A stretch of 64,000 nucleotides of DNA from an uncultured Bacteroidia bacterium (GTDB lineage Bacteria > Bacteroidota > Bacteroidia > NS11-12g > UBA9320), in the NCBI GenBank assembly GCA_905478335.1, contig CAJQIC010000015.1, forward strand, positions 1-64,000. Reading direction: 5' to 3'. The position numbers and the translations under genes are program-made. The notes under the pieces are model-generated. The model saw only the letters and a list, made by a program, of their open reading frames with translations. It had not been told where the DNA came from and ran no database searches. Below are positions 19,663 through 24,165 of the stretch, one piece after another. Positions within the stretch are counted from its first letter, which is position 1. Each line of letters begins with the position of its first letter.

Positions 19663-20319
19663 CTACTCTTTTAATAGGTGCTTAAATTGTTTTCGAACCT
19701 TTTGTACTTTTGGTCCAACCACTGCCGAGCAATAGGGTTGATTCGGATTGTTGTTTAGGTAGTTCTGATGATAGTTTTCCGCTGGGTAATATGTTGGAAC
19801 CGCAGTGATTTCCGTAACAATAGGATTTGGCCAAAGACCGCTTGTATCTGTTGCTGATTTGCTGGCTTCTGCCATAGTTTTTTGCTCATCGTTGTGGTAA
19901 TAAATCACTGACCGATATTGAGTTCCCTCGTCTGCTCCTTGTCTATTTAAAGTTGTTGGATCATGAGAATGCCAGAATATCTCAAGCAAGGTTTCATAAG
20001 AAATTATCGAAGAATCAAACCAAATTCTGGCTACTTCGGCATGACCTGTTTGACCAGAACAAACCTGTTTGTATGTAGGGTTATCAATAAAGCCACCCGC
20101 ATAACCTGACTCAACCTTATGAACGCCTTTCATTTGTTGAAAAACGGCCTCAACGCACCAAAAACATCCAGCACCAAACGTCGCTGTATCAAGGTTCAAA
20201 TTATCTGTTTCCGTTGTCATATCTTCACTCTTATCGGTATCTATGTTGTTGTTTTGTGCACACCCAAAGAAAGGCAAAAGCAGCAAAAGTGGAACAATTG
20301 ATTTTACCATTTGTTTCAT
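19663..20319 (-). CDS. msrA: Peptide-methionine (S)-S-oxide reductase, exported lipoprotein
   Basis: MsrA reduces the S-epimer of methionine sulfoxide in proteins. The catalytic motif GAGCFWC is at residues 49-55 (Cys52 nucleophile), followed by the family segments VESGYAGG and FWHSHDPTTLNRQGADEGTQYRS. A lipobox (FFGCAQ, Cys20) and a 25-residue polar linker come first, so repair takes place in the envelope, not the cytoplasm. The gene is 1 bp downstream of msrB and almost certainly co-transcribed with it. Two Cys are in the active motif, but the usual C-terminal resolving Cys pattern is not obvious beyond QPYCSAV. Confidence 0.94.
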   Translation of the reverse strand: MKQMVKSIVPLLLLLPFFGCAQNNNIDTDKSEDMTTETDNLNLDTATFGAGCFWCVEAVFQQMKGVHKVESGYAGGFIDNPTYKQVCSGQTGHAEVARIWFDSSIISYETLLEIFWHSHDPTTLNRQGADEGTQYRSVIYYHNDEQKTMAEASKSATDTSGLWPNPIVTEITAVPTYYPAENYHQNYLNNNPNQPYCSAVVGPKVQKVRKQFKHLLKE

Positions 20320-20320
20320 G

Positions 20321-21367
20321 CTATTTGTTTAAAGGTTTAAATTTAATCGACACAGAATTAACGCAGTGTCGCGTGTTTTTATCGGTCATTTGCTCTCCTT
20401 CGAATACATGACCAAGATGGCCTTCACAAGTCGTGCATATTATCTCTGTTCGTCTACCGTCGGCATCAAGCTTCCGGGTCACCATCCCATCGATTTCATC
20501 GTCAAAGCTTGGCCAGCCACAGTGCGAATCAAATTTGTCTGCACTCCAGTATAGTGGGGCATTGCACCTTCTGCAGGTATAGATGCCTTGCGCTTTATGA
20601 TTAAAATACTCTCCGGTATACGCGCGTTCTGTACCCTTTTGAGCAATTACATAATTCTCGAAGTCATTAAGATCATTGTACGGTCTAAAAGCGGAACCGT
20701 CTTTGATGTCAAATACTGCCGTTAAAAAGATTCTTTTAACCTCCAGCGGATCTACAAAATCAGTAAAAACTTGGCTAGACCACACCTTAACTACGTCTTG
20801 ATTTTCATCCAGCAGGATCGCATACTGATGACTAAGGTTTAAGTCGAAACCCTCAGCAATTGCATCTGCCCATGCGTTCGGTACACGCACAGATGAATCT
20901 ATACCATTTAATACGGTATGAGTATGGTCGTATGAAAGAATTGCACTGCTAGTCAACCCATCCACTTCGCTGCTTGAAACGATAACCGTCTGCAAACCAA
21001 ATTCTTTCGCATTTGGCACCAATCGGTCATAATGAGCCAAAGCCGTTTTGTATATCGGATCATTCAGATTACCAAGAAACGCAATGAAGGTTGGTTTTGA
21101 TTTATCCCATTGGTTGCCTAAACCACCCAAATTAATTTTTGGTGTGGGGTTCGAAACAACGAAAGACTTGTCGTGCCGAAACCACTTAGACTTATTGTCC
21201 AATAAACCTGGGATGCTATTAATAACTGAATCTACGTCTGCATGAATATTCTTGCCTGTTTTCATTTGCTCTTGACCTTTCATCTGCTCTTTACTTTGTC
21301 CGTTACAATTTAGTAGTAATAGTAAGGATAAACCTACCATAATTGTTTTGTGAATTGCATACTTCAT
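20321..21367 (-). CDS. msrB: Exported MsrB with an extra N-terminal domain
   Basis: The C-terminal 115 residues are peptide-methionine (R)-S-oxide reductase: zinc Cys pairs in [10 protein letters not shown] and [10 protein letters not shown], substrate loop HCGWPSF, and the catalytic Cys in TRHCVNS (about Cys335). The N-terminal 230 residues are unusual. After a lipobox (Cys21) comes an alpha/beta region that looks like a thioredoxin-type fold (strands [32 protein letters not shown]) but contains no cysteine. It could be a dock for a reductant or a degenerate redoxin. Total 348 residues, against about 150 for plain MsrB. First gene of the msrB-msrA pair, divergent from the FixL-like kinase. 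Confidence 0.88.
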
Positions 21368-21461
21368 ATATATTAAACGAGTTTTAAGCTTAGTTGGTTT
21401 TATTTGTGTATTACTGACACAGATTAATCGACTAAAGTGGGTTGTTTAACGTGGAGATTCA

Positions 21462-21479
21462 CTATGACCGCTGTCATAG
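21462..21479. promoter_or_regulatory. CRP/FNR-type palindrome in the msrB / kinase intergenic region
   Basis: CTATGAC-CGCT-GTCATAG is a perfect inverted repeat. It has TGA-N6-TCA geometry, the same as CRP (TGTGA-N6-TCACA) and FNR (TTGAT-N4-ATCAA) sites. Its centre is about 62 bp upstream of the start predicted from the -7 box at 21522-21529, the class I activator position. Confidence 0.55.
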
Positions 21480-21521
21480 CTGGCAGGTGATATTTTTCAA
21501 TAAAGGTCAAAGTTTTAAAAG

Positions 21522-21529
21522 TAACTTTG
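21522..21529 (+). promoter_or_regulatory. -7 box of the FixL-like kinase operon
   Basis: TAACTTTG matches TAnnTTTG exactly, 16 nt before the ATG at 21546. No -33 TTG is visible at the right spacing, which fits a promoter that needs an activator. Confidence 0.55.
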
Positions 21530-21545
21530 GGACGCAATTGCAGGC

Positions 21546-23132
21546 ATGGAGAACAACGAACTTTCATTAAAATTCAAATCCGTTTTTGAAACGGCGATTG
21601 ATGGCATTATTCTCATTAATTCAAGAGGAATTATCGAAGAAATTAATACTGCGGTCACCAAGCTTTTTGGGTATACTAAACTTGAACTTTTTGGTAAGAA
21701 TATAAACGTCTTAATGCCAGAGCCACATCACAGTGGTCATGATGGCTACATACATAACTATCTTACTTCCAAAAAGGCCAAAATCATTGGTATCGGTAGA
21801 GAAGTTGATGGGTTAAAAAAAGACGGAACCCATTTCCCATTCCGACTTGCGGTGAGTGAAATAAAACTCGAAAACGAAACCATGTTTACAGGTTTTATTC
21901 ACGATCTAACTGAAGAAAGAAAAGCACAAAAAAAACTCAAAGAGTACGTTGACAATCTTGAGTTAATGGTGCAAGAACGGACAAACTTACTGGAAGACAG
22001 TAACAACCAATTGGCTAAGGAAATAAGCGAGAAGAACAAAACTGAAGAAGCCTTAATTGAAAGTCAAAAGTTATACGAAACTATTGCTAAAAATTTCCCT
22101 AACGGGACGATTAGTGTTTTAGATAAAAACTTGAACTTCCTATTCATTGAAGGCCAAGGATTACGTGATTTCGGTTTTGGGACTAAGGAGCTAATCGGGA
22201 AAAACTATCTCGATGTCATCCAAGCCAAACTTAGAGACTTGGTTAACCAAAAACTGCAGGTGGTTTTTGACGACATCCCTTCTACTTTCGAGCTTGAACA
22301 CAACCAGAACACGTTTAGGGTTCGTGCTGTGCCATTGGTCAATAATGCACACGTAGAAGATCGAATTCTGCTCGTGGAAAGCAATATAACCCAGCAAAAA
22401 AACGCAGAAAAAGAAATCTACAACTCGCTTCAAAAAGAAAAAGAGTTGAACGAGATGAAGTCAAAATTCGTAAGTATGGCTTCACACGAATTTCGCACAC
22501 CATTGAGTACTATACTCAGTTCTGCCGGGTTAATAAATAAATACGTTGAGGTTGACCAGACAGAAAAAATTAATCGACATACAGACAGAATCCAGAACAA
22601 TGTCCGTAATCTTACCATGATTCTTAACGACTTCTTAAGCTTAGAAAAGTTAGAAAACAACAACCTAACATCTGAGGTAAAACCGTTCGATATCATTGAA
22701 TGTGCATCAGAAGTCAAAGAGGATATGCAGATGCTCAAAAAACCGGGACAAAACATTACCTTAGAGCATAATCTGATTGATACAGATGTGCATACCGATC
22801 GTTTCGTCATTCAAAATATACTGACGAATTTGCTCAGCAATGCAATTAAGTATTCGAAAGAAGATTCGGACATAGGTATTAACATTGAAAAAATGGATAA
22901 AGAATTGAGCATTAAGGTATCTGATAATGGCATTGGAATTAGCAAACCAGATCAAAAACTGCTTTTCCAACGTTTTTTTAGGGCATCGAATTCAGGCAAT
23001 GTGCAAGGAACAGGACTCGGCCTTCACATTATAAAACGATATGTAGATTTGTTGGGAGGAGAAATATTTTTCGAAAGTGAGTTAGACAAAGGGAGCACCT
23101 TTGGTTTTGTTTTACGAAATTTACCGGAATAA
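21546..23132 (+). CDS. FixL-like PAS sensor histidine kinase (possible heme oxygen sensor)
   Basis: A 528-residue soluble kinase without transmembrane segments. PAS1 (about 8-125) closely resembles the FixL heme PAS: LMPEPHHSGHDGYI and IIGIGREVDGLKKDGTHFP. His65 falls where FixL has its proximal heme ligand (His200 in Bradyrhizobium), and Arg85 where FixL has the ligand-sensing Arg220. A coiled coil (125-175) leads to PAS2 (175-285). The HisKA H-box SMASHEFRTPL follows (His314), then HATPase with DNGIGI and GTGLGL. Many related PAS domains keep these residues, so heme binding is likely but unproven. The regulator gene starts 1 bp after the stop. Confidence 0.85.
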   Translation: MENNELSLKFKSVFETAIDGIILINSRGIIEEINTAVTKLFGYTKLELFGKNINVLMPEPHHSGHDGYIHNYLTSKKAKIIGIGREVDGLKKDGTHFPFRLAVSEIKLENETMFTGFIHDLTEERKAQKKLKEYVDNLELMVQERTNLLEDSNNQLAKEISEKNKTEEALIESQKLYETIAKNFPNGTISVLDKNLNFLFIEGQGLRDFGFGTKELIGKNYLDVIQAKLRDLVNQKLQVVFDDIPSTFELEHNQNTFRVRAVPLVNNAHVEDRILLVESNITQQKNAEKEIYNSLQKEKELNEMKSKFVSMASHEFRTPLSTILSSAGLINKYVEVDQTEKINRHTDRIQNNVRNLTMILNDFLSLEKLENNNLTSEVKPFDIIECASEVKEDMQMLKKPGQNITLEHNLIDTDVHTDRFVIQNILTNLLSNAIKYSKEDSDIGINIEKMDKELSIKVSDNGIGISKPDQKLLFQRFFRASNSGNVQGTGLGLHIIKRYVDLLGGEIFFESELDKGSTFGFVLRNLPE

Positions 23133-23133
23133 T

Positions 23134-24165
23134 ATGAAAACGATATTGGTAATTGAAGATCACGAAGAAATTAGGGAAAACCTTTCCGAAATTTTAGAAC
23201 TCGATGGTTACAACGTTCTAAAAGCGGAAGATGGAAAGATTGGTGTAGCTGCGGCAATTGAGCACCTTCCTGACATGATTTTATGCGACATCATGATGCC
23301 GAATTTAGATGGGTATGGGGTGTTGCACATGCTGAGCAGAAATCCGCAAACGATGCGCATTCCATTTATTTTTCTTACCGCAAAGGCTGAAAAAATTGAC
23401 ATCCGTAAAGGAATGAGTCTAGGGGCCGACGACTACATTGTTAAGCCTTTTGATGAAACAGATTTACTGTCGGCAGTTGAAAATCGATTACGGAAGTTTG
23501 ATTTAATACAAGAGGGCTCGGTTACCGCAAAGGCTGCAACCAAATCTGATGGAGAATTGTTCCCTAATGCATACTTCAAAAACTACGTTAAAAAGGACTT
23601 AATATATCACGAAGGTGAAACACCTACCCATGTTTATCAGCTGTTGAGTGGTAAACTAAAACTTACCAGACTGAGCGACGATGGCAAAGAGATGGTGTTG
23701 GACCTCTTAAAAACTGGCGATTACTTTGGCTATTGGTCTGTTCTCCAAAAGCAAACGACAACAGAAAGTGCTGAAGCTCTTGAACCGTCGAAAGTGATGT
23801 TAATCCCAACAGAAGATTTCTTAGAGGTGGTTGAACATGAAAACGATATCGCTTCAAAATTTATAAAGCTACTGAGCAATAACCTACTGGCCCAACAGTA
23901 TAAAATTGTCGAATTGGCCTACAACTCGGTCAGAAAGAGGGTTGCGAGTGCCCTCGTTCAAATTGCGGACAAATACAAGGATGATGATGCTTCAAAACCC
24001 TTTAGCATGGCCGTATCTAGAGAAACTCTAGCGGGTATTGCGGGCACATCTGTAGAGTCTGCTATTCGTATGTTATCAGAATTTAAGTCGGATGGTTTGG
24101 TTGAAGTAGATAAAGCAACCATTACGATAATTGACTACGATACGTTGAAAAACGCTCCGTATTAG
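23134..24165 (+). CDS. Response regulator with CRP/FNR output (REC-cNMP-HTH)
   Basis: A 343-residue fusion. The receiver (2-120) has acidic residues at EDHEE, Asp52 in CDIMMPN and Lys104 in IVKPFDE. A CRP-type effector fold (about 145-260) contains the DYFGYWSVL region but no iron-sulfur cysteines of the FNR type. The HTH (about 270-335) has the recognition helix GTSVESAIRML, keeping the Glu and Arg that contact the TGA core in CRP and FNR. Phosphorylation by the kinase 1 bp upstream should therefore control a CRP-like activator directly. The true start is ATG 23134; a TTG at 23101 would overlap the kinase gene. Confidence 0.92.
   Translation: MKTILVIEDHEEIRENLSEILELDGYNVLKAEDGKIGVAAAIEHLPDMILCDIMMPNLDGYGVLHMLSRNPQTMRIPFIFLTAKAEKIDIRKGMSLGADDYIVKPFDETDLLSAVENRLRKFDLIQEGSVTAKAATKSDGELFPNAYFKNYVKKDLIYHEGETPTHVYQLLSGKLKLTRLSDDGKEMVLDLLKTGDYFGYWSVLQKQTTTESAEALEPSKVMLIPTEDFLEVVEHENDIASKFIKLLSNNLLAQQYKIVELAYNSVRKRVASALVQIADKYKDDDASKPFSMAVSRETLAGIAGTSVESAIRMLSEFKSDGLVEVDKATITIIDYDTLKNAPY

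Follow-up and report, generated by a model that had tools for sequence, protein, structure and literature searches.

A putative tandem CRP-type operator before a FixL-type kinase and receiver-fused CRP operon in Bacteroidia

The closest described counterparts of the locus reported here include systems from other groups of bacteria. In the FixL-FixJ-FixK system of the Alphaproteobacteria, a FixL-type haem PAS kinase acts through two separate proteins, FixJ (a receiver joined to a LuxR/FixJ-type HTH) and FixK (a stand-alone CRP-type protein without a receiver, under the control of FixJ), the latter with the motif TTGANCNNGATCAA, and the targets include cco (cbb3), hemN and, in some species, the sensor's own genes (PMC4999443). 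The hFixL-FxkR-FixKf pathway of Rhizobium likewise leads from an oxygen-type kinase through a response regulator to the cco operon, with FxkR and FixKf as separate proteins, the CRP-type one forming a second layer, and with predicted autoregulation of fxkR (PMC4999443). In Escherichia coli, FNR and CRP share a TGA-N6-TCA core, which is read by a Glu and an Arg of the recognition helix, and act from positions -41.5 and about -61 to -63. The adjustment of respiration to low oxygen appears little characterised in Bacteroidota, for which full-text literature searches returned no oxygen-responsive CRP/FNR regulon. CRP/FNR homologues of Flavobacteriales, Saprospiraceae and Ignavibacteria, which belong to the same broad bacterial groups and the same protein superfamily as those considered below, were assigned to a MalR-like carbon response, and no oxygen regulon was found, in a study whose main text makes no mention of receiver-fused proteins (PMC8510549). 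The operator that we present here is not described in the literature searched full-text, a body of work outside which most subscription papers lie.

The operator region and the operon that it faces

The window analysed is a 64-kb stretch (64,000 nucleotides) of DNA from an uncultured Bacteroidia bacterium, in which an intergenic gap of 178 bp (21368-21545) separates a divergent gene with a C-terminal SelR (MsrB) domain (20321-21367, minus strand; followed by msrA, 19663-20319) from a kinase-regulator operon. Within this gap lies the palindrome CTATGAC-CGCT-GTCATAG (site 1, 21462-21479), composed of perfect 7-bp arms around a 4-bp loop and containing a TGA-N6-TCA core (21465-21476); the geometry ascribed to it by an earlier sequence-only reading is real. 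This symmetric spacing is that of a CRP/FNR-family DNA site, and the outer flanks are not those of E. coli CRP (TGTGA) or FNR (TTGAT), being TATGAC in the window and ATGAY-N4-RTCAT in the consensus of its relatives. Further downstream is a -7 box, TAACTTTG (21522-21529, plus strand), of a predicted housekeeping (sigma-A) promoter without a -33 element; no TTG is found 19-21 bp upstream of the box, and the absence of a -33 box noted by the same reading is therefore correct. As the -7 box has been mapped at -12 to -5 in Flavobacterium psychrophilum (PMC9723704), we place the predicted start at 21534 and the centre of the palindrome at -63.5, the class I distance originally proposed having been about 62 bp.

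The view of this region as a single CRP/FNR palindrome before the kinase gene holds for site 1, and it overlooked both the FixL-type sensor described below and a second TGA-N6-TCA sequence, TGATATTTTTCA (site 2, 21488-21499; neither site is assigned a strand). Site 2 begins at -58 in the kinase upstream region, 23 bp past site 1, and is centred at -40.5, so that together the two form a putative tandem class I plus class II operator. In most relatives, site 2 follows at 22 bp and is centred at -41.5; the register in the window is 1 bp off, with spacings of 23 and 34 vs the usual 22 and 35, and the 57 nt between the TGA of site 1 and the -7 box are the same distance as in relatives. With the start being predicted, the arrangement corresponds to a class I/II activated promoter, for which a centre near -61 to -63 and/or -41.5 and a weak upstream element are expected. 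The promoter looks activator-dependent and the site of CRP/FNR type, probably serving the downstream regulator, as had been suggested. Co-regulation of msrB and msrA, also envisaged at that stage, was not borne out: no -7 box lies in register on the minus strand, and we regard these genes as neighbours of the operator.

The first gene of the operon (21546-23132, plus strand) encodes a sensor histidine kinase with a FixL-type haem PAS domain (residues 10-133), a second PAS-like region, HisKA and HATPase_c. Its first PAS domain matches FixL 1dp6 (E-value about 1e-32), and both the proximal haem His and the FG-loop Arg are aligned with those of FixL (MPEPHHSGHDGYIHNY...IIGIGREV). As a FixL-type haem PAS that retains its His ligand and FG Arg would be expected to do, the kinase probably senses oxygen via haem. 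For the kinases paired with receiver-fused CRP regulators at loci L019, L024, L036, L063-L067 and L070, we observed that the His is kept and that the FG-loop Arg is mostly replaced by Met; their signal may therefore differ from that of FixL-type kinases.

The second gene (23134-24165, plus strand) begins one base past the kinase stop codon, which makes it probable that the two constitute one operon. It specifies a response regulator made up of REC, cNMP_binding and HTH_Crp domains (REC-CRP), the likely ligand of the operator. Asp52, which is phosphorylatable, Glu308 and Arg312 (numbered from Met) are invariant in 77 of 77 REC-CRP proteins, and in an alignment the recognition-helix Glu and Arg fall on their counterparts in CRP; the retention of this pair, remarked upon in the sequence-only reading, was thereby confirmed. 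These residues and the cNMP_binding and HTH_Crp domains are those of a CRP/FNR-family regulator. The residues by which CRP contacts cAMP, Glu72 and Arg82, are not conserved (GELGLF vs GYWSVL and QERSAWVRA vs QTTTESAEA, respectively). The protein is not a FixJ, as its output domain is HTH_Crp_2, nor is it a FixK, as it carries a REC domain. In the regulators of Pedobacter and Sphingobacterium, a change of Ile to Ser in the recognition helix was considered as a reason for their missing sites; to judge from DNA conservation, however, their upstream stretches apparently lie within the preceding coding sequence.

Conservation of the operator and genome-wide scans

Taken alone, a perfect 7+7 palindrome with a 4-bp loop is no rarity: the 64-kb window contains eight. 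A genome scan for TATGAC-N4-GTCATA, put forward earlier as a check, revealed no enrichment, with 130 matches in the window's own genome vs 127 in the reversed control when up to two mismatches were allowed. In the same genome, intergenic copies with one mismatch numbered two, and 32 of 180 permuted palindromes did at least as well; the single-site motif was not enriched in intergenic DNA, a weight-matrix scan giving only a slight intergenic excess on which we place no weight. The scan as proposed would thus fail, the real signal being the composite operator; as this kind of palindrome is not rare and the exact motif not enriched, it is conservation that carries the argument.

G001, the closest relative (kinase 90 % identical), retains both arms intact at -83, as in the window, with a changed 4-bp spacer, whilst in G004 (kinase 78 % identical) ATGA-N6-TCAT is kept exactly at -83; the -7 box is found at -24 from the ATG in the window, G001 and G004 alike. 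Of site 2, G001 retains one half-site and G004 neither. Before the kinase genes of G002 and G003, from the same genus, both sites are absent, so that autoregulation is not universal even within the genus. In G002, we noted a composite operator right after the REC-CRP gene (G002:C39:107482-107546, minus strand), the kinase promoter there being without a palindrome; the gene that it regulates may be the next one downstream.

For a broader comparison we took the DNA upstream of related kinase genes at 64 Bacteroidota loci, which gave a non-redundant set of 60 with the window excluded. Over all spacings tried, TGA-N6-TCA was the commonest 3+3 inverted pair in these regions, occurring in 24 of the 60 relatives' promoters vs 2.9 ± 1.6 in shuffled sequences (maximum 9; 500 shuffles). 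Moreover, 12 of the 14 site pairs in this set were spaced by exactly 22 bp, a result for which shuffles gave 0. Among 72 promoters scored for box offset, namely those behind tandem sites in loci fetched via the kinase, TAnnTTTG stood exactly 35 nt after the TGA of the second site in 20, and in 39 with one mismatch, with at most a few elsewhere. A box 35 nt past the second site puts the two centres at -63.5 and -41.5, which are the class I and class II positions of CRP/FNR. As read from these alignments, the layout of such predicted paired-site promoters is fixed almost to the base across much of Bacteroidia, and conservation in relatives, the lack of which the sequence-only reading had named as refuting, was upheld both for the position of the arms (-83 in G001 and G004) and for spacing across genera.

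The elements were combined into a composite score (site, site and box, each spacing ± 1), trained on other genera with the window's own genus left out. Across the 85 % of the genome that was read, the window promoter ranked first, scoring 29.9 in comparison with 22.3 for the best match in the reversed genome, and 14 matches scored 22 or more, compared with one in reverse. The full composite with up to two mismatches occurred 12 times in six genomes (the window's own and five relatives), and 0 times in the reversed control. Class-wide, a strict tandem pattern yielded 146 sites in 88 of 395 sampled Bacteroidia genomes, whilst the reversed pattern was matched in one genome only (six matches). About half of the sample (198 of 395 genomes) encodes full-length REC-CRP proteins, and the tandem pattern was present in 62 of these 198 vs 26 of the 197 without (p = 2e-5, threefold odds, kinship ignored). 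Judged by these comparisons, position and conservation raise the palindrome above chance, and it is almost certainly a CRP-type operator. As for the reversed-control matches, all six of which fall in the single genome G404, they perhaps represent a repeat family.

Genes associated with the operator

A total of 46 genes were located directly behind in-register tandem operators, comprising, amongst others, nine PAS kinases, six Usp, four COX1 (ccoN), three FixO and four DoxX-like genes, as well as two CBS, two Hsp20 and two YgaP-like genes, an E1-E2 ATPase and a radical SAM (HemN-like) enzyme; as the loci were fetched through the kinase, gene counts near it are biased toward the kinase neighbourhood. 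FixS was identified separately behind a tandem operator in relatives, and CcoI is listed among the relatives' genes preceded by one. From an unbiased pattern search came six cases (G226, G473, G312, G109, G189 and G325) with tandem sites on the right strand, 260-340 bp ahead of the COX1 match of ccoN; in G465 and G306, such sites precede a Usp gene by < 100 bp. Both sets of distances were taken from coordinates. On the strength of these associations, the predicted targets correspond to the genes classically ascribed to FNR and FixK at low oxygen, and REC-CRP is computationally predicted to run an FNR/FixK-like microaerobic regulon in relatives. Before the ccoN gene of G325, two overlapping tandem matches (C157:1174-1231) amount to three TGA-N6-TCA sites at 22-bp steps.

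The genome of the window contains a single COX1 gene and no cbb3 oxidase, so that clustering at respiration genes, which the sequence-only reading had named as supporting evidence, is visible in relatives, where cbb3 genes lie behind the operator, and not in the window's own genome. G001 does have ccoN (C3:7889-9181, minus strand), with a canonical operator upstream of it in the same orientation (C3:11731-11795); in the window genome, the regulator seems to have lasted longer than its classical target. The second-best composite operator (G000:C3:3328, minus strand, beside C3:1375-3301) precedes a YgaP-like membrane protein gene and then a SulP sulfate permease gene, and YgaP-like genes are found behind the operator in two relatives as well. 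Other next-ranked composite matches in the window genome lie ahead of an operon that includes a CBS protein gene, of a thioredoxin reductase-like gene and, in sixth place, of hmgA. At G000:C60:17985-18079, a Usp gene is accompanied by a tandem site that departs from the canonical form by one mismatch in site 1, with TTTG in the -7 register; it is followed on the same strand by a small conserved protein, of a kind also found behind the operator at L027 and L070, and by a second Usp.

Copies of the palindrome itself were also seen upstream of hmgA (homogentisate 1,2-dioxygenase), one near-perfect with a single mismatch in the window genome (G000:C41:677-692, L008) and one perfect, TATGACATTTGTCATA (G001:C14:75805-75820, L126). 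A regulon of oxygen-consuming enzymes (hmgA and a desaturase) was considered and dropped as the main explanation, with only hmgA also ranking in the composite scan.

Proposed mechanism and relation to known systems

We hold with considerable confidence that the palindrome forms the first site of an autoregulatory operator with two sites, through which the oxygen-sensing kinase and REC-CRP would activate their own operon; it is, in other words, very probably a docking site for an oxygen-sensing regulator that switches on its own genes. When oxygen is scarce, the haem kinase would, by analogy with FixL, phosphorylate Asp52 of REC-CRP, which would then dimerise and bind TGA-N6-TCA at -63.5 and -40.5. 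Acting as class I and class II sites, these would allow the bound dimers to bring RNA polymerase to a TAnnTTTG promoter lacking a -33 element, and the kinase-regulator operon would thereby be expressed more strongly. A microaerobic regulon would, in relatives, be controlled through this operator in its usual register, with 22 bp from site to site and the -7 box 35 nt after the second. The sites, their spacing and conservation, the residues and the associated genes are read from sequence, and from them we infer the oxygen signal, phosphorylation, binding, and activation rather than repression.

Repression of the operon in a negative feedback is unlikely. Site 2, at about -40.5, overlaps the place of a -33 element, and a dimer bound there could therefore block polymerase; however, activators of class I and class II typically have their centres at -63.5 and -41.5, a -33 element is absent, and in relatives the same layout precedes the genes for cbb3 oxidase, an enzyme that oxygen limitation strongly induces in F. 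psychrophilum (PMC9723704). Rather improbable, too, is binding of the sites by another CRP/FNR-family protein, such as a stand-alone Crp, in place of the neighbouring REC-CRP. The 26 genomes with tandem sites and no detected REC-CRP suggest that other CRP-family proteins probably read such operators too, and the window genome does encode a second HTH_Crp_2 protein (C23:48172-48816), the sole other Crp-like protein over the cut-off; nevertheless, in its sequence Val replaces the TGA-reading Glu common to CRP, FNR and REC-CRP, and the operator precedes the REC-CRP operon itself across many families. It is very improbable that the palindrome arose by chance or serves a structural purpose (e.g. 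as an mRNA hairpin) with no regulator involved, despite the eight such inverted repeats in the window and the lack of exact-motif enrichment, since it lies upstream of the predicted start and would not be transcribed from that promoter, since its arms but not its loop are kept in G001, and since its spacing to the box is constant across genera and its composite score the highest in the sequence read.

Beyond activation of its own operon by REC-CRP, the reading that we favour, it is reasonably likely that the locus belongs to a widespread oxygen-response system of Bacteroidia that replaces FNR and FixL-FixJ-FixK. Such a system would consist of a FixL-type kinase and a receiver-fused CRP, and would govern cbb3 oxidase, a HemN-like enzyme, universal stress proteins and its own operon through two sites 22 bp apart, at -63.5/-41.5, on TAnnTTTG promoters without a -33 element. 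The composite operator amounts to an explicit sequence rule that can be tested and from which regulon members are predicted, and the kinase-regulator pair would represent one short step from oxygen to promoter. The layout also bears on how activators work with the unusual sigma factor of Bacteroidota, as it suggests that a dimer at -41.5 may substitute for the -33 element.

By its predicted working the system resembles both FixL-FixJ-FixK and FNR, and is a member of neither, because its output is not FixJ-type, its CRP protein carries a receiver and its motif differs. With E. coli FNR and CRP it has in common the TGA-N6-TCA core, the helix Glu and Arg and the positions of the sites. It differs from them in that there is no evidence here of an Fe-S cluster, in that Glu72 and Arg82 of the cAMP site of CRP are not conserved, and in that control is presumably by phosphorylation, with two adjacent dimers as the default layout. 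Its likeness to FixL-FixJ-FixK lies in the FixL-type haem PAS kinase, the CRP-family output with a TGA...TCA core and the targets; in place of separate FixJ and FixK proteins, however, the receiver is fused to the CRP-type DNA-binding protein, making the route one step shorter, and in contrast to the FixK motif the sites follow ATGAY-N4-RTCAT, paired 22 bp apart on TAnnTTTG promoters (PMC4999443). The path from oxygen-type kinase through response regulator to the cco operon is shared with hFixL-FxkR-FixKf, whose two separate regulators (PMC4999443) would have their counterpart here in a single REC-CRP that does the work of both.
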